Assembly: GCA_946811185.2 (NCBI GenBank)
Contig: OX328103.1
Span: forward strand, 30,374,266 to 30,438,265
DNA from: Hippopus hippopus
Taxonomy: Eukaryota > Mollusca > Bivalvia > Cardiida > Cardiidae
Length of the DNA: 64,000 nt
Reading direction: 5' to 3'
Positions 6,809 to 24,889 of this stretch are shown piece by piece. The translations under genes were made by a program, and so were the position numbers. The notes under the pieces are model-generated. The model saw only the letters and a program-made list of their open reading frames with translations. It was not told where the DNA came from and made no database searches. Position 1 is the stretch's first letter, and each line of letters begins with the position of its first letter.

Positions 6809-6914
6809 TATATGGTTGGTGCCAATATGGATAAGTTTATCCGGCTCGGTCCGAAAACTGTAGAGAGCTCGCTCTCTCAGTTTTCTAGGCCTAACTTGAT
6901 AAACTTTATCCATC
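6809..6914. repeat. Host palindrome, left portion, split by the Polinton
   Basis: Imperfect foldback of about 120 bp. The outer arm TATATGGTTGGTG (6809-6821) pairs with CACCAACCATATA at 25127-25139, on the far side of the Polinton. Inside it, GGATAAGTTTATC pairs with GATAAACTTTATCC, and GAAAACTG..AGAGAGC pairs with GCTCTCTCAGTTTTC around a 2-base centre near 6868. Removing the Polinton and one TSD copy restores a continuous palindrome, probably an older MITE-like element. Confidence 0.7.
6909..6914. repeat. Target site duplication, left (TCCATC)
   Basis: TCCATC directly abuts the first base (AGTAGATAG) of the left TIR. The same six bases follow the right TIR at 25117-25122. Six-base duplications are standard for Maverick/Polinton integration. 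Confidence 0.9.
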
Positions 6915-7141
6915 AGTAGATAGTAAAATTCCCACCCTGGCGCAAAATCGTCCAAAAATCACAAAATGAGCCAGAATTCCCACCACAACTAACCACACAC
7001 ATAAATTTCTTAATCGACTAACCCTTCAACCGACTAACCCTAACCACAACTAACCACCCGCATAAATTTCTAATCGACTAACTAGTTAACCAGACAAACC
7101 GACTAACTAGTTAACCACGAATATAAGACTAACTTAAATTT
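6915..7141 (+). repeat. Polinton left terminal inverted repeat
   Basis: 227 bp from AGTAGATAGTAAAATTCCC to CTAACTTAAATTT. It matches 24890-25116 inverted with about 8 substitutions and no indels. The inner half is a tandem array: CACAACTAACCAC occurs twice and CGACTAAC four times. Confidence 0.95.
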
Positions 7142-7186
7142 CAAAAATTTTTGATAAACAATTATATTCAGAATTAAAACAACATA

Positions 7187-8900
7187 ATGGAAAACTATTT
7201 AGGAAGTACAATTAATAATGATTTAAATGAATTATTTAGTAATCATGGACTGGATTTATTACGTTAATATTATTTATTGAATGGGGAAACTCCTCAACAA
7301 GCATTTGCGAGGGCCAGCGTAGCTTATAGTAAAGGTGATGTAGAATTTGCGCAGAGGATATATAATTATGCATCTTCTCGTAAATTTATGTTTTCTTCTC
7401 CTATATTGAGTAATGCCCCATTACCAAATACAAAAGGGCAAAAAAGTCAACCAATTTCCTGTTTTTTGAGTTACGTTCCTGACAAGATAGAGGGTATCAT
7501 TGATCATCTAAGTGACACATGTTGGTTTACAGTAGTAGGAGGAGGAATAGGAGCCGATTGGAGTTCATTTAGATCATCTGACGGTAAATCACCTGGACCA
7601 ATTACATTTTTAACACCTATCAATGCGGCAATAAACTCATATAAACAAGGGAAAACAAGAAAAGGAAGTTATGCCGCATATTATTGTTACACACCCAGAA
7701 ATAACCGAATTCATCTCAATGAGGATACCAACAGGTGGAGATATTAATAGAAAAAATTTAAATCTATTTAATGCTATTAATATCACTGATGGCTTCATGA
7801 GAGCGGTTAAAAATGGTACAAATTATGACCTTATAGATCCAAAAACAAAGGTCAGAACTCCAACAAATGCTAGGAGAATATGGGAAACCATTCTTGAATC
7901 CAGAAGTAGAATAGGAACACCATATTTAAATTTTATTGATACTATAAATGCAGATCTACCTCGAGTAATGAAAGACCAGGGATTAAAAATCCATGGAAGT
8001 AATTTATGTAATGAGATTCATTTACCTACTGACGCAACTACAGATGCTGTATGTTGTGTATCATCCGTAAACGTTGAGTATTATAGAGAATGGGATGAAC
8101 AATTTATAAGAGATATTGTAAGATTTCTAGATAATGTATTAGATGTATTTATCTCAAATGCTCCAGACAATATTAAGAAAGCAAAGAAAGGAGCAATAAG
8201 AGATAGACCATTGGGTTTAGGAATCATGGGATTAGGATCTTTTTTTCAAAAAGAAGGTATTCCATTTGAATCAGATGAGGCAAAGAAACTTAACATTGAA
8301 ATATTTAAGAAAATGAAAGAATATGCATTAAAAGAAACCGAACAACTGGCAAAAGAAAGAGGTGAATGTCCTTCTATGGAAGGCACAGGAAGACGAAACA
8401 CTCATTTATTAGCTGTTGCCCCAACATCTAACAGTTCATTAATTATTAATTGCTCGGCTTCTATTGAGCCAAATATAGCGAATGCATATACATTAAAAAC
8501 AAGAGCTGGAACATTTCTGTGGAAAAATAGATATTTAGAAGATGAACTAGAAAAGATCAACCTCAATAACAAAGAAACTTGGGATTCCATAATAAAAAAC
8601 AAAGGTTCAGTAAGTCATTTACCTTTGTCTGATGAGACAAAAAAAGTTTATAAAACAGCTAAGGAAATAGATCAGTTAAAAATTATAGAATACGCCACAG
8701 ACAGACAGAAATATATATGCCAGGGGCAATCATTAAATGTATTCATAAGCGCAGCCGCCACAAAAAGGGAAGTCCATGAGATCCATTACAAAGCTTGGAA
8801 AATGGGATGCAAAGGATTGTATTATTACAGAGGAGAAGCTGTAGATAAAGCTGAAGATATCTCTACTACTCCAAAGGAATGTCCCAGATTTGTAGCGTGA
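7187..8900 (+). pseudogene. nrdA: Class I ribonucleotide reductase large subunit (NrdA), marine-phage type, disrupted
   Basis: The alpha subunit of class I ribonucleotide reductase reduces NDPs to dNDPs. About 570 codons start at ATG 7187, with no N-terminal ATP-cone. Visible active-site residues: the first redox Cys (QPISCFLSYV), the N-x-C-x-E radical loop (SNLCNEIHL), its partner Cys (AVCCVSSVN) and a Tyr pair near the end (GLYYYRGEA). GRRNTHLLAVAPTSNSS, CQGQSLNVF and KTRAGTFLWKN match what I know of NrdA from marine tailed phages rather than animal RRM1. The C-terminus lacks the usual Cys pair. Two lesions: an in-frame TAA at 7265 after codon 26, and a one-base frameshift near 7672-7685. 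No small subunit is encoded nearby. The gene is the first one inside the left TIR and reads inward; it shares the AT-rich composition of the rest of the element, so it was part of the virus-like genome. Confidence 0.9.
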
Positions 8901-8931
8901 TTATTAAATTGTTAAAATAACAATTTAGTAA
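8901..8931. terminator. Perfect AT hairpin between convergent reductase and polymerase genes
   Basis: TTATTAAATTGTTA and TAACAATTTAGTAA form a 14-bp stem (one mismatch) with an AAA loop, immediately after the reductase stop. The two flanking genes converge here. Its placement suggests a 3'-end or processing signal; function is inferred. Confidence 0.5.
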
Positions 8932-9000
8932 TTTATATAGTAGTGTGGTAGAAAATGCGGGATTTGGAGATTTGTATAAGGATAACTTTATTTTTTAAAA

Positions 9001-12000
9001 TTATATTTTATAATGCCCCCAGGCTAGTGTATCTATTTTATTTTCCAAGACAAACCTTTTATCATAACTTGATCCTAGCGCTTTTTTGTTTAACTCTTCA
9101 GTATACATATCATGGCCCCTACTTCTTAAAACAGTCATCTTTCTATACTGATCCTTTTCTGTAAGCAAACACTCGTTGTAATTATCAAAATTTATCTCTT
9201 TCTTGATAACCGCTTTTTTAACACCTTTACATCTTTTATCTTCCTTACCATCTAAAGTTTCATAAGCATACATTTTCGCTCCTAGACCAACGAACTCAGT
9301 CATAATCTTACCACCTAACTCATCTTTAAACGTTCCAACTACTCGTGCATTACAATCATTTTTTAAGAAATGATCTTTAGGATAATTGTTTGTATCAAAC
9401 ATTTCAGGTACATCTTTTTCTATATCCTTATACAAATTTTTAGTTTCTATTTCAAGAATAAAACTATCTGTATCAGTATAACACATTCTAACCTTTTCAC
9501 CATACTTAGCTTTAAAGTAATTATAATAGGTTTTTTGCATATGTGTTTTACTGATGTCTAAAATACTTAATCCTGAGTAAATAGGTTTAATATATTTTAA
9601 ATCAGTCTTTTTCATGTGTACCGCTGTTAGGTTTTCATCGAATATTGTTGTGTGGCTATAGTTTGGTTTTGCTACTAATTTCCTATAACGCTCCTCATTA
9701 GAAACCAGGTGTATCGTTACTCTATTTCTCAGGTTTTCCATAGTCTTACCAAAGACTGAATTATTCATCAACTTAAAAAAATCTTTTTCAAAATTATTTT
9801 TAGCTGTTTTTCTTAGTTCAATGTTTGTATTAATGTATGACTTAAGCCGTGCACTTTCCTCAAACTTAATTCCTCTATGTATTTTAGTAATCTTTAAGCC
9901 TAAATCAACACATGTTTTTAAGGCTTCATGGTGAATAACATAATTCTTTTTATTATTTAAGTTTGGAATAAGTTTTTTCTACTTTTTCTATCTTTAAACG
10001 TTCAGGTGCTAAAGGAAAGTCATTGTGTAAATCATGTAATTCTTTAGGATATTCTAAATCTACTTCTAATATACATGGGATTTTTTGCCAAATTTCTAAT
10101 TCTTTATTTTTCATCCATTTAAAACCATGTGTAGGAAGAGGACGACTCATTGCCCAAGGGTAAAGGCTGTTTGTATCTATATATAATAAATATTTTGATG
10201 GTTTACTAGGATCATATAATTTACCCATATCCTCATTATTTGCTTTTACATATCTTTTACTACACATACTAACACCCCCTTTAATACCTAATTCTACCAT
10301 CAAAAGCATATCAGGATCAGATAAAAGTTCAAGGTTTACTTTTGTTATTTTCAATGCTGCATCCCAAGCTAAACAAGGAGCAGTGTAATACCAACTAGAA
10401 TCTAAGTCATAGTTTTCACAGCAAACATCTCTAAAGTTCTCAAAAACATCTGCTAAAAGCAATACATCTATTTTATTATAAAGTTCTAAGTAATCCTTAA
10501 ACGTTTTCATATTAAAAGCGTTCCAAACCTTTTGCGCATGAGCATAATCTTCATCTGTAATTCCTTCCTTGTTTAAACTAGAGTAAAATGCTCCTTTAGG
10601 TGGTAATTTCTCTTCTTTAAGTTTATCAAAAGAATCTAGGTACTCATAAGGAAAAACTCCTTTTCTCCTAACTAACGGTAGTTGTTCTTTAGTGAAATAT
10701 TTTGATAAAATTTTTAACTGACTTTCCTCTAAGTTGCTTGAAAGTTTATCCAAACTAGAACTCATAAACTTAAAGCTATCAAGGAATCAATTTTATGGTT
10801 TATATTTTCTCCAACCCAAATGTCTTTACTAAAACTAATATATTTCTCTTCATTATTTGGAATACAGTCAATCTTTCCAGCAGATTTACCAAGACGTTTA
10901 ATAAAAAGATGAGAATCATATCCACTAAGATTATGAAGGTACACAGGTGTGAAGTTAGGATTTTTAGCTTTTAGGTTGCATTTATTATGCGCAGCGCCTC
11001 TATATTTACCTGTAAAATGACAATGATCTCTTACTCTACAATTAGCACGATTAAATTTTCCGCCACAAATCCAGCAGTGTGTTTGTTGTTTATATTTTAT
11101 TTCTTCCTCTATTGTCATTTCAATAGGCTTTGGGTTTTGGTGGTACCGTTGATGAATTTCTTGTATATCATCTTTTAACCGGTTTATAAAAACTTCCTCA
11201 GCATTTTCTCCAACATAACTTCTTTCTATAGGAGCACACACAGTATTATCAAAACATTTTACAATATAGGAAAAACTGCAAGGTATATGCTTTTGACGTT
11301 GTATAGTATAACTTTTTTCTGGGTTTGGTTGGCATGTGTATATTGGTTCTAAAACACTTTCAAAATCAGCGTATACAGCAAAGGGAACCCGAAGTTTTCT
11401 AGCATGGTTTTCAAAAGCTAACATGGCATTTCTAAAGTAATAGGTTCATGTTCATTACAGTATTGTTGATGTTTTTCTAAAAGTTCTTTACTACCAAAAT
11501 GATTTAAACATCGCCTGCAATACGATACACTACCATGATCAATCGCTTGTTTTCTCATTAAACTACTAAATTTTTTTATGAGGGAATAGTGCATGTTTTC
11601 CTCATCTTTAATAAAAAGAAGATCAATATGTTTACTTTTTTCGTTATCTGTAATTCTTAAAGGATAAAATTTACAATCATTGGTATACCCATAAACATTT
11701 ACACTAATTTCAGGATTTTGTTTTTCGAACTTAATGATACCTTTAAACGAAACAGGATACTCTATTCCCTCCATGTTTACACTACTTTCCTTTGCTTGTA
11801 AAGCCTTGTCAACTCTCTCTGCATCACGCTCTTTAGGGTTTAACGCTCTTAAAACACACCATAAAAAGCATTTGTTATCTTTATTTTTCATATTGATAAC
11901 TGCTTTTTTGTTAGCAATCCATTTTGGTAAAGGTAAGTGGCCATTAGCTCTTAAAGGAACATAAGCAGCTGTATGTAGTTCTAACCGCACTATACTTCCA

Positions 12001-12556
12001 AAAGTCCAACCACTACCTTCTCTTTGAAAATTAGCTAAATTTTCTAAAACTTCATCTATCATTGTATTCAACAAATCCTCTACTTCTCCTCCGTTTAAAT
12101 TTAAATGTTGATTACTATGGAAAGCACGTTCAACAGGACCTTGGCCAAGATTTGTCATTAACCATAATTTGCACCTAAGTACAAGTTTTACCTTTGTAAA
12201 TTATTTTGAAAAGTATTTATAAGAGTCTCCCACGTTTCTGCGAAAAATCTTTGTGGGCTATAATTTTCTCTACCCTCTATAACATGTTGAGTAGCATACC
12301 CTCTGAATGCGGATTGAGCAGCTCTAATCTCAAACGGTCGCCTTGGAGGGTAATTTTCTCTAACATGTTCAACAATTTCATCTAACACTTGTGGTATTTG
12401 TGTTGTCTCCACATTACCAGTTAACCAATTACCAAAATCATTTATTCCTCTTTGTATAAATTCTGGTACGACAGCTGAGGCTAGTCGTCTTGCTCCTGAG
12501 TAAACATCAGACGCAACGCGTCTACCCATGTTTGTAAATCCATTAAATAAACTCAT
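9001..12556 (-). pseudogene. polB: Protein-primed family B DNA polymerase (Polinton PolB), four frameshifts
   Basis: Replicative polymerase of the element, about 1,180 codons. The start is ATG 12556 on a TATATAAAAATG motif; the first ~120 residues (Met-Ser-Leu-Phe-Asn...) are the usual Polinton PolB N-terminus. In order on the minus strand: CRRCLNHF finger (~11520), exonuclease motif I YADFES (~11370), a Cys/His cluster CWICGGKF..HCHFTGKYRG (~11080-10980), Exo II HNLSGYDSHLF (~10930), Exo III YNKIDVLLLAD (~10480), polymerase A DTNSLYPWAM (~10170), B NNSVFGKTMEN (~9760) and C YTDTDS (~9475). Motifs A, B and C are all present. The frame is broken near 12185, 11420, 10790 and 9970; the last is at a six-base A run. 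No single product can be made from this copy. Confidence 0.93.
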
Positions 12557-12566
12557 TTTTATATAG
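12554..12566 (-). promoter_or_regulatory. TATATAAAAATG start motif, polymerase
   Basis: TATA-like sequence fused to the A run and start codon. The same arrangement precedes at least six other genes of the element. It supports Met at 12556 rather than the upstream in-frame Met at 12625. Confidence 0.55.
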
Positions 12567-12646
12567 CAGATATAATTTCTTAAGCAATTACAATTTTTCC
12601 TATTTGTTTCAAAAAATTTTATCATAACAACAATGTCATAATAAAA

Positions 12647-12996
12647 TTACTGAATGCAAATCTTATATTTATTTTTCCAAACCCTTCCATTCCAGTTTAA
12701 AATCGTTTGAGGACAATGATCTATAAATTTACCCGCCATGTAAATTGATGGAAAGGTTTTTATTTCACCAGTTTCAACATCCTCTAAACTAACTTTTTTA
12801 GGATTATGCATAATAGTTTTTAATCTATCAAACCTAGAGTCCTTACTTTTTTTCTTTTTCAGGCAACTTGGGAGACTCCTCTGGTAACAAACCATGTTCT
12901 TTCACCAACTTAACTAACCGCTCTTTATCCCAGTATGAGCAGAAATTTATATTATTTTCTTTAAGATTTTTTTTTTAAATCTGTAGTCTTTATCAT
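12647..12996 (-). pseudogene. Small conserved protein with NUMOD-like C-terminus, frameshifted
   Basis: The start is ATG 12996 on a TATATAAAAAATG motif. An N-terminal ~45-residue helical segment (SYWDKERLVKLVKEHG) resembles a SAP-type DNA-binding hairpin. The C-terminal ~45 residues (VETGEIKTFPSIYMAGKFI, then NGRVWKNKYKI) resemble the NUMOD/intron-endonuclease DNA-binding repeat. There are frameshifts in a ten-base A run near 12970 and again near 12855. It lies between the capsid and polymerase genes on the same strand. A DNA-binding role is inferred from these two weak resemblances only. Confidence 0.5.
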
Positions 12997-13006
12997 TTTT
13001 TATATA
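12994..13006 (-). promoter_or_regulatory. TATATAAAAAATG start motif, NUMOD-like gene
   Basis: Same fused TATA/start arrangement as at 12554. It marks the start of a gene whose reading frame is broken only ten codons later. Confidence 0.5.
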
Positions 13007-13019
13007 GGAAAGAAAAATC

Positions 13020-14297
13020 TTAATACACTACACTCATTTTATTTCCATCAGACTGGAAGTTAATTAGCTTATCACTAATAACAACAGCATATACCTCTGT
13101 GTTTGCGGGTACATATTCAGTAAAAGTTGCCTTGATATGGATATCGCTGACTGAGAATTTTAATCTCTCACTCTGTTTAGAAACGTCAAACACAAACAGA
13201 GGATAAAGGGTTTTATAATCTGGGGGAGTAATGTTAGGGTTTGACACCAATTCATCCATGTTATAAAACTTAGATCTAAATAGAGCAGCATCACCGTACA
13301 CTCTACTAAATTGATGCGCAGTGAATGAAAGATTATAGTCAACCGCAGGATATCTAGTGGAATTTAACATAACATAGATATTGTTAACGTTTGTATGATC
13401 AAATATTGCTGGATTTTGCTCTTGATCACCACTTTTACCAGTCTGAAAGCCAACAATGACAAAACGTGGCACCTCAGGTGATAATTTGGTAGAAAGTCTC
13501 CAGTTAAATGATGTTGACTTAGGAACCGTGATAGAGTCGCACTGCCTCATTCTATATCCAACCGGTAATTTTTCTTTTTTCTGGATAATTTTATAAAGTA
13601 CCATCTTCTCTCCATCTTAGGTAGCACGTGTGGCATAAACCAAGATATTTTAATTAAATTAATTCTGCCACCAGCAGGAGCAGCACCATCTCGAAAGATT
13701 GCATCATTATCATCATTTCTTGTCAAGGTGAGAGTTTGCTTCATTCCATACAATATTTTGCTATAATCATCACAAAAACCAAATATATGTTTTAATGGAA
13801 CTCTAAAGCTAAAGGTACCTCTTGGAAGGGCATCCCTAATAATATACCTTCTTCTTACTTCAAAACCAGTGTTTCCAGCAGCTGCAGTATTTGTTGTATT
13901 CTTATACCACAATTGGTTTAACCCTTGTGATTTTGAGAAGTCATCTGGGTATTTTAACAACCCAAGCATTGTAGTAGCCTGGCCAGGATGCAATATGGAT
14001 TCAATCTCCATACCTGAAAGTTGATACTTAATATTTTTAAAAAGATACATGAGACCATTGTTTGTTAAAGAAATATTGGTGTTAGCATCGTAAACTGCTC
14101 CAGTATCACTTCTTACTAATTCGCCTATAATAAGTAAATAACTCTCACTAGGATGTGTAAAAATATCTTGAGTTTCAATGTTAATCCTAATATCTCCTCC
14201 TGAGTTGTTGAGTTGTGATTGGTTCATACTCATGGTGCTCATGCTCAACAATACTAGCATCTTTTAAAATTGGGTCAGTGATTCTTAAAATGTCCAT
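13020..14297 (-). pseudogene. mcp: Major capsid protein, double jelly-roll, two frameshifts
   Basis: Hexon-like capsid building block, about 425 codons from ATG 14297. The N-terminus (MDILRITDP) and the segments GGDIRINIETQDIFTHPSES (residues ~35-55) and RQCDSITVPKSTSFNWRLST (middle) are typical of Polinton double-jelly-roll capsid proteins. The frame is broken near 14215 and near 13605; the three segments overlap and together cover the expected length. It sits directly upstream of the NUMOD-like gene and polymerase on the same strand. Confidence 0.9.
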
Positions 14298-14307
14298 TTT
14301 ATTATTG

Positions 14308-14339
14308 CAATTATAATTTTTAAATAAAAATTATAATTG
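14308..14339. terminator. Perfect 14-bp AT hairpin between capsid start and upstream gene end
   Basis: CAATTATAATTTTT and its exact complement flank a 4-base loop. It sits between the stop of the 14346-14699 gene and the capsid start. It could end the upstream transcript or shape the capsid promoter. Function is inferred. Confidence 0.5.
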
Positions 14340-14345
14340 TATACT

Positions 14346-14699
14346 TTACTCTAGCCAAAGCTGGGTGAAAGACTTATTTTCATCATTAACAAACACACCT
14401 TTAAGTTTAATGCTTTTTGCAGTATCTATTTTAGTTTTAGGATAAACTCTATTACCGTATACAAGTGTTATTTTGGGTATATTCCACTCTTGTAAACGTT
14501 CATTCACCTTTTCCTCAATCTCTTTCATTGCAATTACTTCTTCAGGAGATAACTTCACAATGGCTTTTTTATAACCATATTTTGTGTTATTAATTTCAAG
14601 GATTTCACAATCTTCTAATTTTAACAATGCACCTACTATAGTAATAGAACTAGTATTGTATTTTTTATAATCTACACGATTAAACTTTAATTCTGACAT
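14346..14699 (-). CDS. Conserved Polinton small protein, unknown (117 aa)
   Basis: An intact frame of 117 codons starting MSELKFNRVDYKKYNTSSI. It has alternating beta-rich segments (ITIVGALLKLEDCEI, KITLVYGNRVYP, SIKLKGVFVN), charged surfaces, no membrane segment and no cysteine-rich motif. A similar protein appears in other Polinton-type genomes as far as I recall. The beta pattern would fit a small OB-like or single-strand DNA-binding fold, but I see no decisive motif. It lies between the capsid and the Gly/Ala/Lys-rich gene in the minus-strand late block. No TATA-ATG motif precedes it. Confidence 0.65.
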   Translation of the reverse strand: MSELKFNRVDYKKYNTSSITIVGALLKLEDCEILEINNTKYGYKKAIVKLSPEEVIAMKEIEEKVNERLQEWNIPKITLVYGNRVYPKTKIDTAKSIKLKGVFVNDENKSFTQLWLE

Positions 14700-14748
14700 T
14701 TTCTTTTTTAAGCAATATTTTTTTCCTTAACTTATTTTTATTTTTTCT

Positions 14749-15147
14749 TCATACTACTTTAATGCCTGCTCCACTGTTTAATTTTTTAACTAAATCTTGA
14801 ATAGCAATGGCACTTCCTTCTATTAGGGTACTAATGTCTTGCGTTTTAGGTGTATCAGTGGGTTTCGGTGTTGCGCTATATTTTTGTAAAATTTTCTTTG
14901 ATTTTGGTGTCAAAGCTTTTGTAACCAATTTTTTCCCTGCATCTACAGCTGCACTTTTTCCAACCTCTAAAGCTTTCTTTGCTCCTTCCTTTGCTACACT
15001 CTTTCCCACATCAAGGGCAGAAGATGCAATTTGTTTAGCTGCGCTACTTGTAAAAAGCCTCGCTAAAAAGTTAGCAATGCTGTCAAAGATTCCAGCACCA
15101 CCGTATGAATATCTTTTTTTAAATCCGTGTTTTTTATTGACAATCAT
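14749..15147 (-). CDS. Basic Ala/Lys/Ser-rich virion protein, adenovirus pX/pVI-like
   Basis: 132 codons from ATG 15147, on a TATAAAAAATG motif. It starts basic (NKKHGFKKRYSYGGAG), followed by a short hydrophobic segment (GIFDSIANFLARLF) and then three Ala/Lys repeats (VGKSVAKEGAKKALEVGKSA) likely to form an amphipathic helix. Adintoviruses and adenoviruses carry small proteins of this style next to the capsid gene, with YGGAG-type sites cut by the viral protease; a role in core packing or membrane disruption is inferred. The frame is intact. Confidence 0.6.
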   Translation of the reverse strand: MIVNKKHGFKKRYSYGGAGIFDSIANFLARLFTSSAAKQIASSALDVGKSVAKEGAKKALEVGKSAAVDAGKKLVTKALTPKSKKILQKYSATPKPTDTPKTQDISTLIEGSAIAIQDLVKKLNSGAGIKVV

Positions 15148-15158
15148 TTTTTATAGTA
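15145..15158 (-). promoter_or_regulatory. TATAAAAAATG start motif, pX-like gene
   Basis: TATA-like run fused to the start codon at 15147, as for the polymerase and PLA2 genes. It overlaps the last codons of the upstream gene that ends at 15151. Confidence 0.5.
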
Positions 15159-16104
15159 TAGACATTAAATTTTTATAAGCGTTTGAATCTAAAACACCTT
15201 GTCTTTTTAATTCATCACAAATGCTCACTAACTCGTTTCTTACACCTGTGTTGCCTGCTTCTTTACTTGCCAACAACAGGTCTAGTCTTTTTATTAATGC
15301 GTTAGGGTCACACGGGATAACAATTCCTTTTCCAAAGATTTTTTTATCAGCCCAAACGTGGGAAAGAATGTTTCTCCATTTACCTGCTCTGCTGCTTTTT
15401 GGATTATCACTTTTTGGGTCATTATGACGATAGAGGGTATTGCTGTAGTCCATTATTTCCTTATAAGTTTCAAGATCCTTATCATTATAAATATCTTTGT
15501 CTGGTTTTCTAGATATGATTAATTCCCATAAACCAGGTGTACCTTCATAAAATCTATCACCAACTAAAAGATTATCTCCCGCAATGCCAACTGGTGTGTT
15601 ACCAATATAAAATGTGCCATCTTTGTCATATAACCCATACGTTGTATCAGCTCCATACTTAGTAGCAAACTTTCTTAGGTACTTCTCCGAGATTGGCCCA
15701 ACAAAAACTGGATAGTTCTTTTCTTCTTCTTCTTCCGCTTCTTCCATATACCGCCTAATCTCATCAATTTCTTCATCTGTCAGTCCTTCTGGTTTTTTGT
15801 AAGCTTCGATAGATGGAAATGCTGGAAACTTAATAGCTTCTGGTAATTTTTCTACACCTTCTTTAATAGGTATAAGCCCCTCAGTAATCTGCTTTGTTGC
15901 AGCTTTTTGTGCTTCTGTAATCTCCTTTGTTGTAGCTTTTTGTGTTTCCGTAACAGGTTTAAAAAACTTTGAAAGATCGGTTTGAAGTTGTCGTTCGCCT
16001 GTTCTCTCTGCTAGCAGATTATCCCGAATCCTCTTTTTTGTTTCAAGATACTCCTTTACAATTAAGTCCCTTTTTGCAGGATCAGTGATTTTTAAAAAAG
16101 ACAT
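15151..16104 (-). CDS. Conserved Polinton virion-associated protein candidate (317 aa)
   Basis: Intact frame of 317 codons starting MSFLKITDPAKRDLIVKEYL. Residues 1-95 are predicted coiled coil with near-repeats (TETQKATTKEITEAQKAATKQ). An acidic stretch (EEAEEEEEK) follows at about 125-135, then a globular C-terminal half (YGLYDKDGTFYIGNTP; RAGKWRNILSHVWADKK). I recognise this as a common protein of invertebrate Polinton-type elements but know no proven function. It sits in the capsid block, ending 4 bp from the next gene's start. A structural or capsid-scaffold role is only an inference. Confidence 0.65.
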   Translation of the reverse strand: MSFLKITDPAKRDLIVKEYLETKKRIRDNLLAERTGERQLQTDLSKFFKPVTETQKATTKEITEAQKAATKQITEGLIPIKEGVEKLPEAIKFPAFPSIEAYKKPEGLTDEEIDEIRRYMEEAEEEEEKNYPVFVGPISEKYLRKFATKYGADTTYGLYDKDGTFYIGNTPVGIAGDNLLVGDRFYEGTPGLWELIISRKPDKDIYNDKDLETYKEIMDYSNTLYRHNDPKSDNPKSSRAGKWRNILSHVWADKKIFGKGIVIPCDPNALIKRLDLLLASKEAGNTGVRNELVSICDELKRQGVLDSNAYKNLMSIL

Positions 16105-16224
16105 TTTTTAATTACTAAAATATTTTTTATCTCAGTTCTTAGCATAGTTTTTAACATAATTTCTTAACACGTTTCATAACTAAAGCTACATGAAAACTTT
16201 ATTTTTCTTGGTTTGTTACTACTT

Positions 16225-16880
16225 CTACGAGTGAGCGGTACGATTCTTTTCAACCAACTTCCGAAAGGACTCACGCGCTTCTTGCCTCCCTCTCTCAATT
16301 AAACTTTCTTCATTTTCAGCAAATATCTTTTTCTTAGTTTTTGTTCTTATTTCATCCTTCATCTTCTTATACTTCTCTTGTTCTTCCATGATAAGTTTAA
16401 ACTCTTCATCTGATATATGATTGTCAACTAAAGCTTTAGATATATGTGAAGCAATTGTGTCAAGCTTAGCATCAGCTATCATTCGAATCTTTTGATGTTT
16501 TTCTCCTTTTGTTTTTGAATTTCTTACTACATATTTACCTACCATTGAGAGTAATCCGGTTGCTGCACTTGTAATTTCTAAACCTAATGCTATTGGTACC
16601 GCTACAACTGTACCCAATAATATGGCTCCCCCAACACCAGAAACCGTTGTTAGCCCGATCAATGCTGTATCAATAACATCAACAATTCAAAATATTTCTT
16701 GGCAAGGGCTTCTCTTTTTTAAATTTCATTCTCAAGAAACTTCTGTACTTCGGATATCTTTTGTAAACGGTAGGAATGTCCTATTGTGTGCATCTCAATA
16801 GGTGGAGCGCTTGCAGTATTTCTTTCTTGAGGTAGTGAAGGATAAATTTTATTAGGATGTTCTTGATATATATCTGTCAT
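16225..16880 (-). pseudogene. Conserved Polinton protein with hydrophobic centre, frameshifted
   Basis: About 218 codons from ATG 16880. The N-terminal 50 residues (MTDIYQEHPNKIYPSLPQER) end in a stop near 16720. The downstream frame carries a glycine/alanine-rich hydrophobic stretch of ~45 residues (VGGAILLGTVVAVPIALGLE), likely one or two membrane-inserting helices, then a charged helical tail (HISDEEFKLIMEEQEKYKKM). Two frame breaks fall between 16670 and 16725. The architecture recurs in other Polinton-type elements; a membrane-active virion role is inferred. Confidence 0.6.
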
Positions 16881-16907
16881 TTTTTATTAAAATGATAATT
16901 TTTTATA

Positions 16908-17288
16908 TCAAGATTGTAGATATTTTAGATAGCAAAATAACTCAACCTCAGGTATTTCAATTGTTTTTTGTGAGAAATTATAAATGTAGACTAAGATATC
17001 ATTAGTCTCATTATCAAGATGTATTCCATTAAGAATGGTTAAACTATCTTTCCATTTATTACTAACAGATATCACTACAACTCCTCGTGTAGTTATATAA
17101 CCAAATCCTAGCGAAAGTCTCATACCATCACGAGGAGGAATCTTAATAGGTACTTGTGAGTATATTTTCCATTTTAGAGGATTTTGCTTTAAGGGAGGAT
17201 ATTTTACCCTATGTAAATGAGGTTTCCAAAATATAGTTTTATGTTGAATAGTAATATTAGGTTTTATACCAAATTTGTGTATATCCAT
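16908..17288 (-). CDS. dUTPase-like fold ORF (126 aa), catalytic motifs not conserved
   Basis: Intact 126-codon frame. Residues ~48-120 follow the trimeric dUTPase beta pattern: IPPRDGMRLSLGFGY, a GVVVISVSNKWKDSLTI strand pair, NGIHLDNETNDI at the place of dUTPase motif 3 (usually G-x-I-D-x-x-Y-x-G), then LVYIYNFSQKTIEIPEVEL. The motif 3 tyrosine and the motif 1 aspartates are missing, so enzyme activity is doubtful. It could be a structural protein using the same fold. It lies in the minus-strand virion block. Together with the reductase it may hint at a nucleotide-supply theme; that is inference. Confidence 0.4.
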   Translation of the reverse strand: MDIHKFGIKPNITIQHKTIFWKPHLHRVKYPPLKQNPLKWKIYSQVPIKIPPRDGMRLSLGFGYITTRGVVVISVSNKWKDSLTILNGIHLDNETNDILVYIYNFSQKTIEIPEVELFCYLKYLQS

Positions 17289-17308
17289 TTTTATTTTTAC
17301 TTGTTACG

Positions 17309-17328
17309 AATAATATTTAAATATTATT
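17309..17328. terminator. 20-bp perfect AT palindrome between two minus-strand genes
   Basis: AATAATATTTAAATATTATT is a perfect palindrome lying between the stop of the 17336-17918 gene and the start of the dUTPase-like gene. Its placement matches the other intergenic hairpins of the element. Confidence 0.4.
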
Positions 17329-17335
17329 TATAACA

Positions 17336-17918
17336 TTACAATATAGCCCCTAAGATAGGTATATTAGCAAATGGACTATTAGGTCCAACTAAAAGTCCTT
17401 TTCCATCATAATTTTTTCCTCCTTGCTTTAAATACAAACCATCACCAGCAGACTCTAATCCTTTACCTTTGTATGGCTTTAAGTATAATCCAGATCCATC
17501 AGTTTCCACCTGACAAACGCATCCTCCTTTTTAAGATAAAGACCTGACCCCATTGCTTTTTGTACTCCTGATGAGGCTAATCCGGATAGAGCACCAACAC
17601 CTAAGCTGGCAAAACAGTTTTTGCTAACATTGGTAAAGCACTGGCAGCCAACCCAGCTAACATTCCAAGAAAACCTCCCTCTATTTTCATATTATGTTTA
17701 AGTTGTTTCGCAGACATTCTAATAGTTATACCCTTACCACTCTCATAGGCTTTAGCTATTTTCTTTGCTTGTGAATTGGTTAATGCTAAAACATCATTAC
17801 CTTGTAAATCTTCATAACCTAAACGGATACTTACTGGGCAACCAGCTTTAACAGCATATTGAAGCTTTTGCTTTTGTCCTTCCGATATATTAACTTTAAC
17901 AGTAGTGTAACTTGTCAT
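17336..17918 (-). pseudogene. Conserved Polinton minor virion protein, Gly-rich tail, two frameshifts
   Basis: About 194 codons from ATG 17918 on a TATATATAAAAATG motif. The N-terminus (VKVNISEGQKQKLQYAVKAG) is followed by LQGNDVLALTNSQAKKI, then a hydrophobic amphipathic segment (GGFLGMLAGLAASALPMLAK) at ~85-104. A Gly/Tyr/Lys repeat tail follows, with three GSGLYLK-like units, ending FANIPILGAIL. Frame breaks fall near 17600 and 17525. The hydrophobic segment plus GG-containing repeat tail resembles the membrane-lytic pVI-type proteins proposed in adintoviruses. The role is inferred. Confidence 0.6.
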
Positions 17919-17930
17919 TTTTATATATAA
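17916..17930 (-). promoter_or_regulatory. TATATATAAAAATG start motif
   Basis: Fused TATA/start arrangement for the minor virion protein gene, the longest TA run of the set. Confidence 0.5.
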
Positions 17931-17943
17931 TTCTTTTTTTATT

Positions 17944-18715
17944 TTATCTCGCTTCTCTAATATGGAATCTAATTGTTAAATTTTCGCCTCTAAGATTTAG
18001 TAATGTTCCATTTTGATCTGTAATATTTACCTCTAAGCTATGTATTTCATGTAATGTTATTGGTAAGTATACTAAATTAAGTGGTGACTCAATTATCTTA
18101 TATCCAGGTGCAACATCTGGGAAAAAAGAGTAAATAGTGTTTTTTGTTGAACCATTAACATAACTTCCTGAAATAATATCTATGTTAACAAGCAAACTAT
18201 TTATACTAAGAATGTTCACTACATTCTCTGACTCATAAAATCCTTGTGTATATTTAGCGTGAGTAAATCCTAATACTTTGGCAATAGAGTTAGGTTGATT
18301 AAAATCTACTTGATAACCATCTTGTAGAGTAAGAACAGACTTTAGGGTATTGGTGTTTGCAGAAATGTTAATATAATACTCTTCATTAACTTCATCGTAA
18401 TGACCCGTTTTTCTCATTTCCTGGTGAATGGTATCATTAATGTCAACAAGGTCATAACTTCCTTCAGGTATTTTTATTTTAATCCATGAAGTACCATTGT
18501 CTGGAGAATAAACGAATATGTTGTTTGTTGCATCAATGTTTGGAAAAGAGTAGTAAGTTTCAAGGTTTACTAAAGCTATTTCATATTTTTTATCCTTTTC
18601 CAGCTGAATAGGAGGATTAAACCTTGTTCTAAAACGTGTTGTTGTCGCTTACTATAATTTGAAATGATGTTTTGTGTTCTGTATTTTTTACAATTTGTTC
18701 TAAAAGTTCTTCCAT
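17944..18715 (-). pseudogene. Penton / minor capsid protein, one frameshift
   Basis: About 257 codons from ATG 18715 (MEELLEQIVKN), the length and position expected for the Polinton single-jelly-roll penton protein. Recognisable segments are PPIQLEKDKKYEIALVNLET near residue 35 onward, DNGTSWIKIKIPEGSYDL (~85) and LTLQDGYQVDFNQPNSIAKV (~140-160). The frame breaks once near 18640; everything from about residue 34 to the end is then continuous. It lies between the packaging ATPase and the minor virion protein. Penton proteins cap the 5-fold vertices and would seat the fibre encoded at 21393. Confidence 0.75.
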
Positions 18716-18740
18716 TTTTTTAAAAAAGTGAAAATATTTT

Positions 18741-19523
18741 TTATACTGACTTAGGTATGTAAAAGTTGTCAGAACCGTTTCTATACTTCCCATCATGTTT
18801 TTTACTGGTTAGATCAATGATAGCGAAGCCGTGCGGTCTTTCCCATGCTCTTTTACAAAATTCCCTAAATTCATCCTTTGGCATATCATCACCTACATGA
18901 TCACTATAAATATGGTTAATGTTTTTTAGGTCTTGTCGGAGAAGACAAATAAAATTAGCGTTTTCTCTAATAGTTTGCCTTGGTAGTCTAAAATAATTCT
19001 GTGAAAGGTAAAAGCAGTCAACGTTACTATGTCTTCCACGAATGTAGTAACACTCACATTTGCTTTGCTTTTCTAAAAGTAAATCATCAAAAATCATTAA
19101 GTTTTTATTTTCTGGGTTTAACTCTCTCGGATCAGGTACGTCACTCGCATTTTCAAAAAAGTTACAATATATATCCGATTTGTTTTTAAACGACTTAACC
19201 CATTCCTCAACTAAAGCTGTAGGGGATACATTTAATTCTTGTATTTCATCACGCATGTTAAACAACCTTAAAATACATTCTTTTGGTAGTTTTTCTTCAA
19301 AAGCCTTTTTTAGTATTCGGTATTCTGGTTGAAAAAGGCTTTTTCCAAAAACACTTAAATCATTGTAGTCGAGCCAACCTGGTCTAAGTAAAAGATTTAG
19401 CAATAAAGTAGTTTTGCCACATCCTGATTTCCCTACAATTATTCCTCTGATACTTTTTGGTAAAAGGCAGTGATTAAATCTCTTTGATACTACTTCATTC
19501 CATGATAAGTTTACAATATCCAT
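18741..19523 (-). CDS. FtsK/HerA-type genome packaging ATPase
   Basis: Intact 260-codon frame. The Walker A motif GKSGCGKT is at residues 31-38, Walker B NLMIFDDLLL at 141-150, and a sensor-like segment FICLLRQDL follows near 195. Length and motifs match the A32-like packaging ATPases of Polintons, adintoviruses and NCLDV-type viruses, which pump DNA into the capsid. It starts at 19523 on a TATATAAAATGG motif and is divergent from the PLA2 gene with only 34 bp between, so both probably share a promoter region. No lesion seen. Confidence 0.92.
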   Translation of the reverse strand: MDIVNLSWNEVVSKRFNHCLLPKSIRGIIVGKSGCGKTTLLLNLLLRPGWLDYNDLSVFGKSLFQPEYRILKKAFEEKLPKECILRLFNMRDEIQELNVSPTALVEEWVKSFKNKSDIYCNFFENASDVPDPRELNPENKNLMIFDDLLLEKQSKCECYYIRGRHSNVDCFYLSQNYFRLPRQTIRENANFICLLRQDLKNINHIYSDHVGDDMPKDEFREFCKRAWERPHGFAIIDLTSKKHDGKYRNGSDNFYIPKSV

Positions 19524-19560
19524 TTTATATAACTTTTTAAATTTTTATATATAAAAAATG
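19521..19560. promoter_or_regulatory. Divergent promoter between ATPase and PLA2 genes
   Basis: The 34 bp between two divergent starts are almost pure A/T, with a TATATAAAATG motif reading left and TATATATAAAAAATG reading right. Each TATA-like box runs directly into its own start codon, leaving no room for a conventional 25-30 bp TATA-to-start spacing. Confidence 0.6.
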
Positions 19561-20055
19561 TATTGTGTTAAATGTAAAAAACATACTGATACAAGCGATA
19601 TAGAATATGCTGTTGCTAAAAATGGAAGAAATATGAAACAGGGAAAATGTGTAGTTTGTGGAATAACTAAAAACCAGTTTGTTAGGGAGACAAAGGGTGG
19701 ATCATTGCTAAATAAAGCTATAAATAATTTACCTTTTGAAATGCATCTCCCTGGTCAAAATTTCACAGGCCCCGGCACTAAATTAAAGAAAAGACTCAAT
19801 CCAGATTTAACACCAAAGAAATGGAGCAAATTAATAAATCGTGTTGATAAAGCTGCTTACCATCATGATGTTTGCTATCTTCAGCATAATAATACTGCCA
19901 CAAGAAACGCAGTGTGTGATAAAAATATGTTAACAGAGTTAGAAGGTATTTACAATCCTACTATTAGAGAAAAAATGGAAAGGGGGTTGGTAAGTAAACT
20001 CATTGGAACAAAGAGGAAATTTGGAATGGGAGTTAAAAAAAAAATTTCAGTATGA
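19558..20055 (+). CDS. Zn-ribbon plus parvovirus-type phospholipase A2 domain protein
   Basis: 165 codons from ATG 19558. The N-terminus has two CxxC pairs (C3/C6 and C31/C34) forming a probable zinc ribbon. Residues ~60-110 hold the parvovirus VP1-type secreted PLA2 signature: a calcium loop LPGQNFTGPGTKL and the catalytic His-Asp dyad in YHHDVCY (H103, D104). In parvoviruses and adintoviruses such a domain helps virions leave the endosome; the same role is inferred here. The C-terminus is basic (KRKFGMGVKKK). The stop codon overlaps the integrase start (ATGA), suggesting coupled expression. Frame intact, key residues intact. Confidence 0.85.
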   Translation: MYCVKCKKHTDTSDIEYAVAKNGRNMKQGKCVVCGITKNQFVRETKGGSLLNKAINNLPFEMHLPGQNFTGPGTKLKKRLNPDLTPKKWSKLINRVDKAAYHHDVCYLQHNNTATRNAVCDKNMLTELEGIYNPTIREKMERGLVSKLIGTKRKFGMGVKKKISV

Positions 20056-20957
20056 TAAATTTAGCGGAAGAATTACATAAACCTGTAAAAAGAAAATTTA
20101 AGAAAAGGAGAGTTAGAGTAAATGGTATAGATAGGATATGGGCTGCGGATTTAGTAGACATGCAAGCATTTTCTAAGTTTAATCGCGGTGTAAAATACCT
20201 TCTCGCTGTCATTGACATCTTTTCTAAATATGGATGGTTGATACCATTAAAAGATAAAACAGGAAAATCTGTTGCTATAGCATTGAAGAGTATTTTTAAG
20301 GAAAGAAAACCTGAAAAAATGTGGGTGGATAAGGGTAAAGAGTTTTATAACAAAGATGTAAAAGACTTGGTTGAATTGTATTCTACTGAAAATGAGGAAA
20401 AATCTAGTGTTGTTGAGAGATGGATTAGAACAATGAAAGAAAAAATGTGGGAGTATTTTTCTGCTAACTCTACAAACGTTTACATCAATGTGTTACCAGA
20501 TCTCGTTAAAGAATATAATAACACAAGACATTCATCTATTAAGATGACTCCAGTAAATGCTAGTAAAAAAGAAAATGAAACCAAAGTTTGGAGAAATCTT
20601 TACCCTGATCATCTCGAAATAAAGGATATAAAACCTAAGTTTTCTGTTGGAGACAAAGTAAGGATAACTAAAAAGAAAAAGACTTTTGAGAAAGGTTATA
20701 CAACAAGATGGACTGAGGAGATTTTTACAGTTTCTGAAGTAAAACATACATCACCTGTAACATATAAAATTAAAGATCTTAATGGCGAAGAAATACAAGG
20801 TACCTTTTATGAACCTGAACTGCAGAAAACCAGTCAGGAGCTGTATAGGATAGAAAAGGTTATTAAGAAAGGAAAAAAGAAATCTCCTGTGAAGTGGAAA
20901 GGTTATCCCGGCGAATTGAATTCATGGGTTGATAATAAAGACATTAGAAATATTTAA
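20052..20957 (+). CDS. int: Retroviral-type integrase with C-terminal chromodomain, short D-E spacing
   Basis: 301 codons. The rve core starts with WAADLVDM (D33) and FSKYGWLIPLKDKTGKSV; the second Asp is in WVDKGKEFYN (D93) and the Glu in SSVVERW (E122). Only 28 residues separate D93 and E122, against 35 in Polinton and retroviral integrases, so about 7 residues are missing just before ELYSTEN. A duplicated GTTGAATTGTAT-like sequence recombining out could explain it. The C-terminal ~35 residues (LYRIEKVIKKGKKKSPVKWK) are a chromodomain, likely for chromatin targeting. No zinc domain is seen at the N-terminus, as is usual for this group. The frame is open, but the deletion probably kills catalysis. 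Confidence 0.92.
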   Translation: MINLAEELHKPVKRKFKKRRVRVNGIDRIWAADLVDMQAFSKFNRGVKYLLAVIDIFSKYGWLIPLKDKTGKSVAIALKSIFKERKPEKMWVDKGKEFYNKDVKDLVELYSTENEEKSSVVERWIRTMKEKMWEYFSANSTNVYINVLPDLVKEYNNTRHSSIKMTPVNASKKENETKVWRNLYPDHLEIKDIKPKFSVGDKVRITKKKKTFEKGYTTRWTEEIFTVSEVKHTSPVTYKIKDLNGEEIQGTFYEPELQKTSQELYRIEKVIKKGKKKSPVKWKGYPGELNSWVDNKDIRNI

Positions 20958-20969
20958 CTATAAAAAATG
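20958..20969 (+). promoter_or_regulatory. TATAAAAAATG start motif, protease
   Basis: Starts one base after the integrase stop and ends in the ATG at 20967, which is in frame with the protease. It argues that the protease originally began here, upstream of the TAA at 21012. Confidence 0.5.
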
Positions 20970-21383
20970 TTAAATATTTCAATTGAAAACGTAATTTTAC
21001 TAAATAAACCGTAAAGCAATTTCGAGTTGGAAGATATAGCAAAAGGATTAAAGATACCTTCTTTTAGAGGAGTTTTTTTACTAGATACGTTACCGAGAAA
21101 ACCAAATAAAAAAGAATGTGGTATAGTAAACTTTGATAAAAGTGGTGGACCTGGTACACATTGGGTTGCTTGGTATAAAAACGGTAGAACTAAAATATAT
21201 TTTGATAGTTATGGTATACAACCACCTATTGAAATTCGAGAGTACCTAAAAAGTCCAATACAGTACAATACTGATCAATTACAACAAGCTGGACAAGTAT
21301 TTTGCGGTCATTTATGTTTATACATTCTAAAAGAGTTAAGCTCGGGTAAAAAGTTTCAGACAGTGATAAATAAACTTTTTTAA
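20967..21383 (+). pseudogene. Adenovirus-type cysteine protease (adenain), in-frame stop near N-terminus
   Basis: Maturation protease that cleaves capsid and core proteins. The His is in GTHWVAWYKNG, the Asp in KIYFDSYG and the catalytic Cys in VFCGHLCLYIL, in the order expected for the C5 family. The ATG at 20967 is followed in frame by a TAA at 21012 after 15 codons; the rest, from 21015 to 21383, is open and carries the whole catalytic core. Translation might still start at TTG 21027, giving 119 codons, close to a full domain. It lies between the integrase and fibre genes on the plus strand. Confidence 0.85.
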
Positions 21384-21392
21384 TAATAAAAA

Positions 21393-22715
21393 ATGCCTGT
21401 TGATAAATTTGGACGAATGAAAGAAGATAAAATAAGCGGTGATGGTGTGTCACTCGCTTACATAAATAATAATTTTTTACGTAAAGATGGAACAACTGTT
21501 GTTTCTGGTTCTATAGACATGAATGGTAATACATTAACAAGGGTTAGTAATCCGGTAAATCCTCAAGACATTGCTACAAAACATTACGTTGATGAAAATT
21601 CTGGGGGGTTATTAAAAGAAAATGGTGGATACCAAGCCCTTGGATTTATAAATATGGGTTTCAATGAAATAAGAAATGTTAAAGAACCTGCAGAACCAGA
21701 TGAAGCTGTTACTAAAAATTATGTGGATAGAAGCGGTAAAGCAATAGTAGAGAACCAAGACGGCACTTTTTCCGCTATTGCAAATATAGATATGCGAGGG
21801 TATACTTTAACTAATCTTCTGGATCCCGCAGATGCCCAAGATGCAGCAACTAAAAAATATGTAGATAGTGCAAATAAAGCCTTCGCTTATGGAGCTGGTA
21901 GGTATATGGCAGTTGATGACGTTTCTATGGGGGGACGAAGAATTAACAATGTTGGAAGTCCTTTAGAAAATGATCAAGCTGTAAATAAGTTTTACGTAGA
22001 TACCGTTGTTGAGGTAGCTACTGCGGGTGAAAAAGCTTTGACGAAAAAACAAGATGGATCTTTTTCAATGGCTGGAGGAATAGATATGAATGATAACCCG
22101 ATTACTGGATTACCTAATCCTACATCACGTGATGCTGCTGCCAATAAAAATTATGTTGATAATGGTGGAGCTATTGTAAAAAATCCAAATGGAAGCTTCA
22201 CAGCGGTGGCTAACGTAAATCTCCAAGGTTTTTCTCTAAAAAACGCTGCAACCCCGGTAGAAGAGAGAGATTTAGCAACAAAATCCTATGTGGATAAAAA
22301 AGTATCCCTTCCTTCTCTCATAGGTCCTAAACCTATTATAACTGTGTGGGCTGAAGAACAGGGACCAATTGGAGACGGTAATTATGAGTTCTCTTTTGGT
22401 AATGGTAATTCAGGTAAAAGGCATGGTTTAGGGGGTTACTGCATGAGTGCGCCAGGTAGAATTATAAGAGGAAGTTTAACGATTGTTAAAAAGGATCTTA
22501 ATGTACCAGAAGAGGTAAAAGTTAATATTGCGGTAAACGGATTGGAGCAGGTTGATTACTCTATTATTAAAAAGGCAGACGAAATTTGTAGCTGTACGGT
22601 TTTTCCGAGGGCGTTGGAGGTAAAGCAATGCGACATCATAAACTTTATTTCAAGATCAACTAACCGTGATGTAACACATGCTTACATATCTATTTTGATA
22701 GAATTAGACTTGTAA
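21393..22715 (+). CDS. T4-like fibre protein with six YVD repeats
   Basis: 440 codons from ATG 21393, on an AATAAAAAATG motif nine bases after the protease. Residues ~40-301 contain six repeats of 45-53 residues. Each ends in the pattern NP-x(4)-D-x-A-T-K-x-Y-V-D, with YVD at 65, 110, 156, 201, 254 and 299. This pattern is known from T4-type short and long tail fibres, where it builds a trimeric shaft. The last ~140 residues (from PSLIGPKPIITVW) are a unique globular region and could be the receptor-binding head. The N-terminal 30 residues (MPVDKFGRMKEDKISG) could anchor it to the penton. Frame intact. A receptor-binding role is inferred. Confidence 0.8.
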   Translation: MPVDKFGRMKEDKISGDGVSLAYINNNFLRKDGTTVVSGSIDMNGNTLTRVSNPVNPQDIATKHYVDENSGGLLKENGGYQALGFINMGFNEIRNVKEPAEPDEAVTKNYVDRSGKAIVENQDGTFSAIANIDMRGYTLTNLLDPADAQDAATKKYVDSANKAFAYGAGRYMAVDDVSMGGRRINNVGSPLENDQAVNKFYVDTVVEVATAGEKALTKKQDGSFSMAGGIDMNDNPITGLPNPTSRDAAANKNYVDNGGAIVKNPNGSFTAVANVNLQGFSLKNAATPVEERDLATKSYVDKKVSLPSLIGPKPIITVWAEEQGPIGDGNYEFSFGNGNSGKRHGLGGYCMSAPGRIIRGSLTIVKKDLNVPEEVKVNIAVNGLEQVDYSIIKKADEICSCTVFPRALEVKQCDIINFISRSTNRDVTHAYISILIELDL

Positions 22716-22748
22716 AAATATAACTTTGTTTATAAAAGTTATATTTTT
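22714..22748. terminator. Perfect 13-bp hairpin between convergent fibre and RING genes
   Basis: AAAAATATAACTT and AAGTTATATTTTT pair exactly around a 9-base loop in the 54-bp gap where the plus-strand fibre gene and the minus-strand RING gene converge. As a bidirectional 3'-end signal it would serve both. Confidence 0.6.
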
Positions 22749-22769
22749 GTGGTTGAATAAATAGATACA

Positions 22770-23552
22770 TTATAAATCAATTGGTATCTTTCTTTTTATG
22801 GTTGTATAATTCTTACACATTGGGCAATCATTAGATTCATATAGGTCTATGCAGTCGTTACAGATTGGGATATGTCCACAGTTACAGAATAGAATATTTG
22901 GTTTGTTTGTGTTACAGATTACACAGGAATCCATTGGAAAACATTTCCATTCGTTGATAGGTTGGATATCCTCCATGATACTTTCTGTGATTTGCTCTAC
23001 TACATATCTATTATGTTCTTCTCTGGTAATTCTATGCTTTGGGGCATCTCCTATTATAATAGCCTCTCCAAATAGGTTGAAATAGGCTTCTCTACAAGTA
23101 CTACAGTTGTAACAGCTACATTTTCTGTGTTGTCCTAGTGTTGCTACGGTTATACATATGGAAAAACAATTTGATTCTGTTCTACATTCGGAAATAGCAT
23201 CTTGCTTGTAGTTTAAATCTCTATCTAGAGAAAGAAACATTTTGTAGTTTCTAATATAGTGTTCCATATATTGGGTAGTTAATATATCTACACCATCGCT
23301 AGATTCAAACCATATAAATCCTACAACTCTTTTTTGCTCTCTAACCATCTTGGATAGGTAGTAGTATAGTACTGGTATTAGATCTTCTAGTATGGTAAAA
23401 TAGGTATGGTCTCTAGGTAGGAAATCGAAATCATAGATGATTCTTCCATCCCATAGAGTTGCTTCTGTTTCTTGTTTTGGGGTGTATCGGAGTTTCTTCT
23501 GTAAGTGTGGTTCTAATATAGACCCTAATGTTTGGATGTACTTGGTAGCCAT
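22770..23552 (-). CDS. RING-finger protein (probable E3 ubiquitin ligase)
   Basis: Intact 260-codon frame. The C-terminal ~55 residues form a C3HC4 RING: CVIC, then CNCGHIPICNDC, then CPMC. A second Cys cluster (CSCYNCSTC) lies around residue 150. The first 140 residues show no known domain; there is no BIR motif, so it is not a classical IAP. RING proteins encoded by large DNA viruses often redirect host ubiquitination, and that is the likely role. It is the most interior gene of the inward-reading block at the right end. Its upstream region has the A-rich early-type motif (TTTCTTATTTTTTT near 23605) rather than the TATA-ATG motif of the virion genes. Confidence 0.8.
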   Translation of the reverse strand: MATKYIQTLGSILEPHLQKKLRYTPKQETEATLWDGRIIYDFDFLPRDHTYFTILEDLIPVLYYYLSKMVREQKRVVGFIWFESSDGVDILTTQYMEHYIRNYKMFLSLDRDLNYKQDAISECRTESNCFSICITVATLGQHRKCSCYNCSTCREAYFNLFGEAIIIGDAPKHRITREEHNRYVVEQITESIMEDIQPINEWKCFPMDSCVICNTNKPNILFCNCGHIPICNDCIDLYESNDCPMCKNYTTIKRKIPIDL

Positions 23553-23576
23553 TCTGTCCTCTATATCTGTCTACCT

Positions 23577-23645: not shown

Positions 23646-23703
23646 ATATATTGTCTGTTCTATATATGGTAGGATTTATAATATTACATCGAATATTATA
23701 GAT

Positions 23704-24834: not shown

Positions 24835-24889
24835 GTTGTACTTTGACAAATTTGATCATGAAAAAATAAGAAAATTTCAAAAAAATTTT

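Follow-up and report, generated by a model that had tools for sequence, protein, structure and literature searches.

Polintons are generally described as carrying genes for replication, integration and the virion. What, then, is the large subunit of a ribonucleotide reductase (R1, NrdA) doing at one end of such an element in the bivalve Hippopus hippopus, where did it come from, and with which small subunit (R2) might it work? Here we analyze a stretch of 64,000 nucleotides (hereafter the window; assembly GCA_946811185.2, contig OX328103.1, positions 30,374,266 to 30,438,265 of the forward strand), together with further copies of the gene in the same genome. We consider it probable that R1 is a resident, selected gene of phage/bacterial type in a multi-copy Polinton lineage, likely pairing as the catalytic subunit with the host R2 in a hybrid class I reductase and thereby providing the DNA polymerase of the element (PolB) with more dNTPs.

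A reductase gene between TIR and polymerase

The window contains a complete-looking Polinton at 6915-25116, bounded by terminal inverted repeats (TIRs) and flanked by a 6-bp target-site duplication (TSD). Its features are as follows.

6909-6914: left TSD, TCCATC, the same letters as 25117-25122
6915-7154, forward strand: left TIR, 240 nt, beginning AGTAGATAGTAA, 95% complementary to 24877-25116
7187-8900, forward strand: broken R1/NrdA, class I ribonucleotide reductase large subunit (Pfam, PHROGs and NCBIfam matches; open pieces 7277-7747 and 7671-8900)
8905-8927: hairpin at which R1 and PolB converge, TAAATTGTTA-AAA-TAACAATTTA, read from the sequence
9001-11424, reverse strand: viral-type PolB in pieces (PF03175 DNA_pol_B_2 on one, PF02945 on another)
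13020-14260, reverse strand: double jelly-roll major capsid protein, two overlapping pieces (PF21738 on both)
18741-19523, reverse strand: A32-type packaging ATPase (PF04665 Pox_A32)
19558-20055, forward strand: phospholipase A2-like protein (PF08398, PF18930)
20052-20957, forward strand: retroviral-type integrase with a chromodomain-like end (PF00665 rve; PF00385 below its cut-off)
22770-23552, reverse strand: RING-finger protein (PF13920)
23704-24216, reverse strand: repeat-rich protein
24301-24849, reverse strand: 182-aa protein
24877-25116, reverse strand: right TIR, 240 nt, pairing with the left TIR
25117-25122: right TSD, TCCATC, a perfect duplication of 6909-6914

The TIRs, the 6-bp TSD, the viral-type PolB, the rve integrase, the A32 ATPase and the double jelly-roll capsid protein are hallmarks that this element has in common with Polinton/Maverick (adintovirus-like) elements, from which it differs by carrying a ribonucleotide reductase large subunit. 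The integrase match to PF00665 is barely above threshold (32.7 bits, cut-off 32.6). An open reading frame at 21027-21383, examined for an adenovirus-type protease, had no Pfam match. The phospholipase A2-like gene has a DUF5679 domain at its N terminus. Polinton PolB is protein-primed.

R1 starts 32 bp past the end of the left TIR and lies tail-to-tail with PolB over the hairpin. This arrangement agrees with a first-pass annotation of the locus, which had put the gene between left TIR and PolB and let it end at a hairpin common with PolB. The four R1 motifs named there, including SNLCNEIHL, AVCCVSSVN and CQGQSLNVF, are all present in the window. The composition of R1 fits the element: in three copies elsewhere in the genome, GC is 0.33-0.38 and GC3 0.21-0.29, ranges that overlap those of five other element genes in the window (GC 0.31-0.37, GC3 0.24-0.31), so that the AT-rich composition ascribed to both is indeed shared.

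The R1 frame in the window is interrupted by a TAA soon after 7260 and then by a frameshift near 7641-7747. The piece at 7277-7747 matches Ribonuc_red_lgN and Ribonuc_red_lgC in Pfam, the piece at 7671-8900 matches Ribonuc_red_lgC (E=2.7e-89), and the two score 119.7 and 524.5 bits against the bacterial NrdA family PRK09102 of NCBIfam, for which the cut-off is 620. Against a 571-residue copy of the same group (group A, below), tblastn gave two pieces of 94.5% and 93.6% identity, which overlap and correspond to residues 1-165 and 149-570. The second cysteine of the C-terminal pair is lost, and the capsid gene and PolB are also in pieces in this copy.

According to the first-pass annotation, no Polinton or adintovirus had been described with an R1. 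We found no such report among the matches listed from the literature on Polintons, adintoviruses, Polinton-like viruses and virophages, as far as the accessible text goes and with subscription journals mostly outside the scope. Reductase terms were not found in PMC10120064 and PMC11071308; in the text available, the single passage with such a term in PMC11252502 is on viral gene expression, and PMC10294476 names Mavericks without gene content. The nearest precedent in the accessible text is an R2 gene, found in the virophage EMALE07 (PMC8547959) and in Yellowstone virophages (PMC4602308).

Three R1 lineages and two positions

The H. hippopus genome (1.07 Gb, 34 contigs) gave at least 103 R1 matches, some of them fragments; the number is a lower bound because scoring covered 102 of 163 candidates. 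Sorted by their identity to the window R1, 42 matches belong to group A (89-100%, window included), 44 to group B (76-80%) and 17 to group C (74-75%). We read 23 group A copies (the best-scoring after the window) and all 17 of group C with about 6 kb of context each, as well as four group B copies of about 3 kb each, picked among those with long open frames; 58 of the 103 matches fall outside the copies read.

All 40 copies read from groups A and C (23 and 17) have R1 and PolB tail-to-tail, although the partner, the PolB piece at 9001-9771 of the window, has no Pfam match of its own. The window TIR is matched upstream of R1 in 22 of 23 group A copies and in none of the 17 of group C. The group A terminus AGTAGATAGTA is at the edge of 19 of the 23 other A copies with a different flank each time, and group C has its own terminus, AGTAGGTTGTA, in 14 of 17 copies, again with all flanks different. 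No pair among the 40 copies has an upstream flank of 700 bp or more in common, while 69 pairs share some shorter stretch. Since the outside sequence differs from copy to copy and no long flank is common, the A and C copies are separate insertions. Two group C copies of R1 lie about 53 kb apart on one contig (G000:C6:11443573-11503140).

The first-pass annotation had proposed looking for intact R1 genes next to a TIR and had named late insertion as an alternative history. Within this genome, frames longer than 500 aa are kept in 36 of the 44 other copies read (16 of 23 in A, 3 of 4 in B and 17 of 17 in C), and in group A the window TIR lies upstream as described. Late insertion was set aside in view of the constant PolB neighbor in the A and C copies and of three divergent R1 lineages.

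Pairwise Nei-Gojobori comparisons among copies with long open frames gave median dN/dS values for R1 of 0.133 in group A (120 pairs, range 0.075-0.491), 0.194 in group B (3 pairs, range 0.172-0.195) and 0.072 in group C (136 pairs, range 0.029-0.171), where the choice of open frames lowers dN/dS and the A and B copies read are mostly the better-scoring ones, both of which favor an intact appearance. As a yardstick, the last 650 residues of PolB, likewise from copies with long open frames, gave 0.197 (6 A copies) and 0.221 (17 C copies). These values point to purifying selection on R1. Selection has most likely acted during replication of the element, because chromosomal copies should drift.

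The columns of the active-site C/N/C/E, the redox cysteines and the tyrosine pair are invariant in all 36 open copies, and of the two C-terminal cysteines one is kept in 35 and the other in 34 of them, so that the residue set of a class I large subunit is found in full. Placed by motif, we take the invariant columns to be C225, N437, C439, E441, C462, Y730 and Y731 of Escherichia coli; the residue roles of this set are likewise assumed from E. coli NrdA.

Group B elements have a different arrangement. No PolB match was found in the approximately 1 kb after R1 in the four copies. R1 is followed by a homologue of the repeat-rich protein of the window (three of four copies; tblastn to L055, L056 and L058) and next by the element TIR in reverse orientation (88-90% over 92-100 nt, four of four), and the single copy tested for it (L057) has a remote RING-protein homologue in front of R1 (32% over 71 aa, E=3e-6). 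Because of these flanks, that is, the repeat-rich homologue and reversed TIR on one side and the RING homologue on the other, we place R1 of group B near the opposite end of the element. The repeat-rich protein itself (window 23704-24216; downstream of R1 in L055, L057 and L058) is of low complexity and rich in P, Q and Y, and its repeats vary visibly among Polinton copies. Just beyond the right end of a group B element, L268:1674-2528 resembles a mariner-type transposase by eye.

In all three A-C pairs tested, R1 shows a DNA identity of 73-74%, which rises in a step to about 88% in PolB. The synonymous difference (pS) between these groups is 0.70 for R1 and 0.318 for PolB; since the former far exceeds the latter, the two genes are without one common history. 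Small terminal genes also change place: a gene of 165-169 aa sits between R1 and PolB in the three group C copies inspected (L043:3184-3693 and L046:3190-3687 among them), and its 182-aa homologue in the window (41-47% by tblastn to L043 and L046) is near the right TIR. Based on the identity step, the moved small gene and the pS of R1 versus PolB, the R1-bearing end has most likely been exchanged relative to the backbone.

Type and ancestry of the Polinton R1

Three intact copies, one per lineage, passed the PRK09102 cut-off with 666.5, 670.1 and 661.5 bits. Pfam found Ribonuc_red_lgN and Ribonuc_red_lgC only in the two intact proteins scanned (one of group C, one of group B), and the ATP cone (PF03477) was absent from both. 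For an intact copy, the top sequence matches in the PDB are class Id alpha subunits at 339 and 306 bits, compared with 221-224 bits for human RRM1. A fold search with the structure model (mean pLDDT 71.7, weak in parts of the barrel) returned 6dqw first, with human RRM1 chains a close second. According to PMC8463856, an ATP cone is missing from class Id alpha. The two intact Polinton proteins scanned have this in common with class Id alpha (6dqw, 6dqx), which is the best PDB match of the Polinton R1 by both sequence and fold, at 33-35% identity. Class Id enzymes also have a dimanganese beta subunit; no beta subunit was found here.

The best database proteins are 55-61% identical to the Polinton R1. 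Among named phages the best is Methylophilales phage Melnitz (55-56%), and Pelagibacter phages reach 51-53%. With the NrdA of these marine tailed phages (approximately 51-56% identity to the best named ones) and with PRK09102-type bacterial NrdA, the Polinton R1 shares the family, the active-site motifs and the C-terminal CxxC; it differs in having no R2 alongside, in forming its own long-stemmed clade and in a shorter C-terminal tail. Identity as animal RRM1 was set aside, given the higher class Id and PRK09102 scores, the missing ATP cone and the nesting described next. The earlier description of the protein as like marine-phage NrdA and unlike animal RRM1 is upheld on the same grounds.

For phylogeny, we reduced 374 proteins from databases and viral contigs to a set of 34 representatives (78% identity). 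E. coli NrdA, used as outgroup in a first, quick tree, had a branch length of 10 and for this reason was omitted from later trees. The final tree has 45 rows, nine of them Polinton, and is without animal RRM1 and NCLDV R1; 13 of 58 earlier rows were dropped (two Melainabacteria/cyanobacteria, V_L195, five redundant Polinton, four viral-contig and one Francisella). The Polinton R1 proteins form one clade (100/100) on a long stem, which joins five metagenomic rows (P0025, P0032, P0046, P0121 and P0137) at 100/99, and the two together are nested in a set of rows from marine phages, viral contigs and bacteria (Melnitz, Francisella, Bermanella). With groups defined after inspection of the tree, forcing the Polinton R1 outside all rows but the outgroup was rejected (p-AU 0.006), as was forcing it outside the inner group (p-AU 0.001). 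The motif LYYYR is common to the Polinton R1 and its five sister rows, and the other aligned rows have YYLR.

Viral contigs and phages queried with P0025 and P0032 gave relatives of at most 67% identity and did not reveal the source of these proteins; five bacterial loci came from a contig scan with P0002. Related R1 genes (56% to P0032) are also carried by a pair of phages, PQ867851.1 and PQ867842.1, recorded from the oyster Crassostrea hongkongensis, an example of phage R1 in the setting of a marine animal.

Because the Polinton R1 is nested in a phage/bacterial tree, we infer that it was captured from a phage or a bacterium. The donor could be either, since the sister metagenomic proteins group with phages and some bacteria. 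The search and phylogeny that the first-pass annotation had proposed against phage, bacterial, NCLDV and animal proteins thus place R1 among the phage, bacterial and metagenomic rows, the comparison within the tree being with these. Of its suggestion that a gene moved between phage and eukaryotic virus lineages, the nesting in a phage/bacterial clade supports the movement; a phage and a bacterium fit alike as donor.

The missing small subunit and the role of R1

A whole-genome search with the R2 profile PF00268 gave four exon-like matches, all within 4.1 kb on one contig (C4) and to successive parts of the profile, a search that gave matches in 7 of 14 control genomes and that a very divergent R2 could escape. 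We take the four matches to be one split gene, the putative host R2. None of the listed R1 matches on this contig is within 10 Mb of it. A tblastn search with five R2 proteins found none in the window, as the first-pass annotation had noted, and none in 52 loci of the same genome, most of which hold one element end only, apart from one chance match (E=0.44). A cognate R2 encoded nearby, as expected of a class I holoenzyme, is thus not seen here, and the Polinton R1 appears, as far as these searches show, to be an orphan. The EMALE07 and Yellowstone Lake virophages are likewise small eukaryotic viruses with a reductase subunit gene, but they carry the small subunit, whereas the Polinton lineage carries the large one; in the accessible text, EMALE07 has an R2 gene (PMC8547959) and the Yellowstone virophages share theirs with giant viruses (PMC4602308).

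The R2 partner could also come from a virus and not from the host, either from a helper or from a separate, free member of the same lineage that has retained R2. Related R1 genes in viral contigs do travel with R2 (71 of 81 loci, within the stretch examined), and the R2 genes of some virophages make a reductase split among small viruses plausible. However, the PF00268 profile found no integrated trace of a helper R2 in 1.07 Gb, although R1 gives at least 103 matches, and we regard this source of R2 as unlikely.

Some herpesvirus R1 homologues are without a matching active R2. R1 might similarly be kept for a non-enzymatic job, for example trapping host defense proteins, which needs no R2 and would accord with the lack of R2 in these elements. 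PMC5469499 and PMC12282084 describe R1 homologues of herpesviruses that inhibit signalling by RIP1 or sequester APOBEC3B. The cytomegalovirus homologue, however, is inactive by the title of PMC5469499, whereas the Polinton R1 is of phage/bacterial type and keeps its catalytic cysteines, tyrosine pair and C-terminal CxxC in all three lineages, with differences between them of up to about 30%; moreover, the two intact copies scanned have no domain added to lgN and lgC. A non-enzymatic role seems rather improbable.

It is very improbable that R1 is a passenger without function, a chance acquisition from a phage or bacterium that is merely copied with the element. The broken window copy and the 7 of 23 group A copies without a frame above 500 aa are what one would see in such a case, but the median dN/dS of 0.07-0.19, the 17 intact frames of 17 in group C and the invariant active site already contradict it, as do three R1 lineages in two positions of the element. 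An assembly error or contamination joining phage to host DNA, which phage-like sequence inside a eukaryote-sized assembly might bring to mind, can be dismissed for practical purposes, given the TSD around the element, the many copies on different contigs with different flanks, and the absence of Polinton genes from all 81 viral contigs with a related R1 (at E 1e-3).

We return to the preferred reading, a hybrid class I reductase with the host R2. After capture from a phage or bacterium, R1 would be enzymatically active, as its conserved catalytic residues suggest, and would pair with the host R2 as the radical-making small subunit. Because the ATP cone is missing, the hybrid enzyme may escape dATP feedback, and the raised dNTP supply would feed the element's own PolB. 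R1 would be used during extrachromosomal, virus-like replication, since selection must act on replicating copies and not on chromosomal ones. The subunit that usually limits the reductase in resting animal cells is R2 and not R1, which makes a virus with R1 only an odd case, and docking of a phage-type R1 to an animal R2 may fail. A fuller scenario, which we offer tentatively, is that a eukaryotic Polinton captured a feedback-insensitive, phage-derived R1, that the phage R2 was dropped in favor of a cross-domain hybrid with the animal R2, and that the gene has been shuffled as a cassette between element ends and backbones.

In conclusion, R1 is a gene common to tailed-phage/bacterial and eukaryotic Polinton lineages. 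As a natural orphan, it makes the choice of an R2 partner directly testable in vitro. That selection retains an enzyme of dNTP synthesis is indirect evidence for Polintons replicating as viruses in cells with limiting nucleotides.
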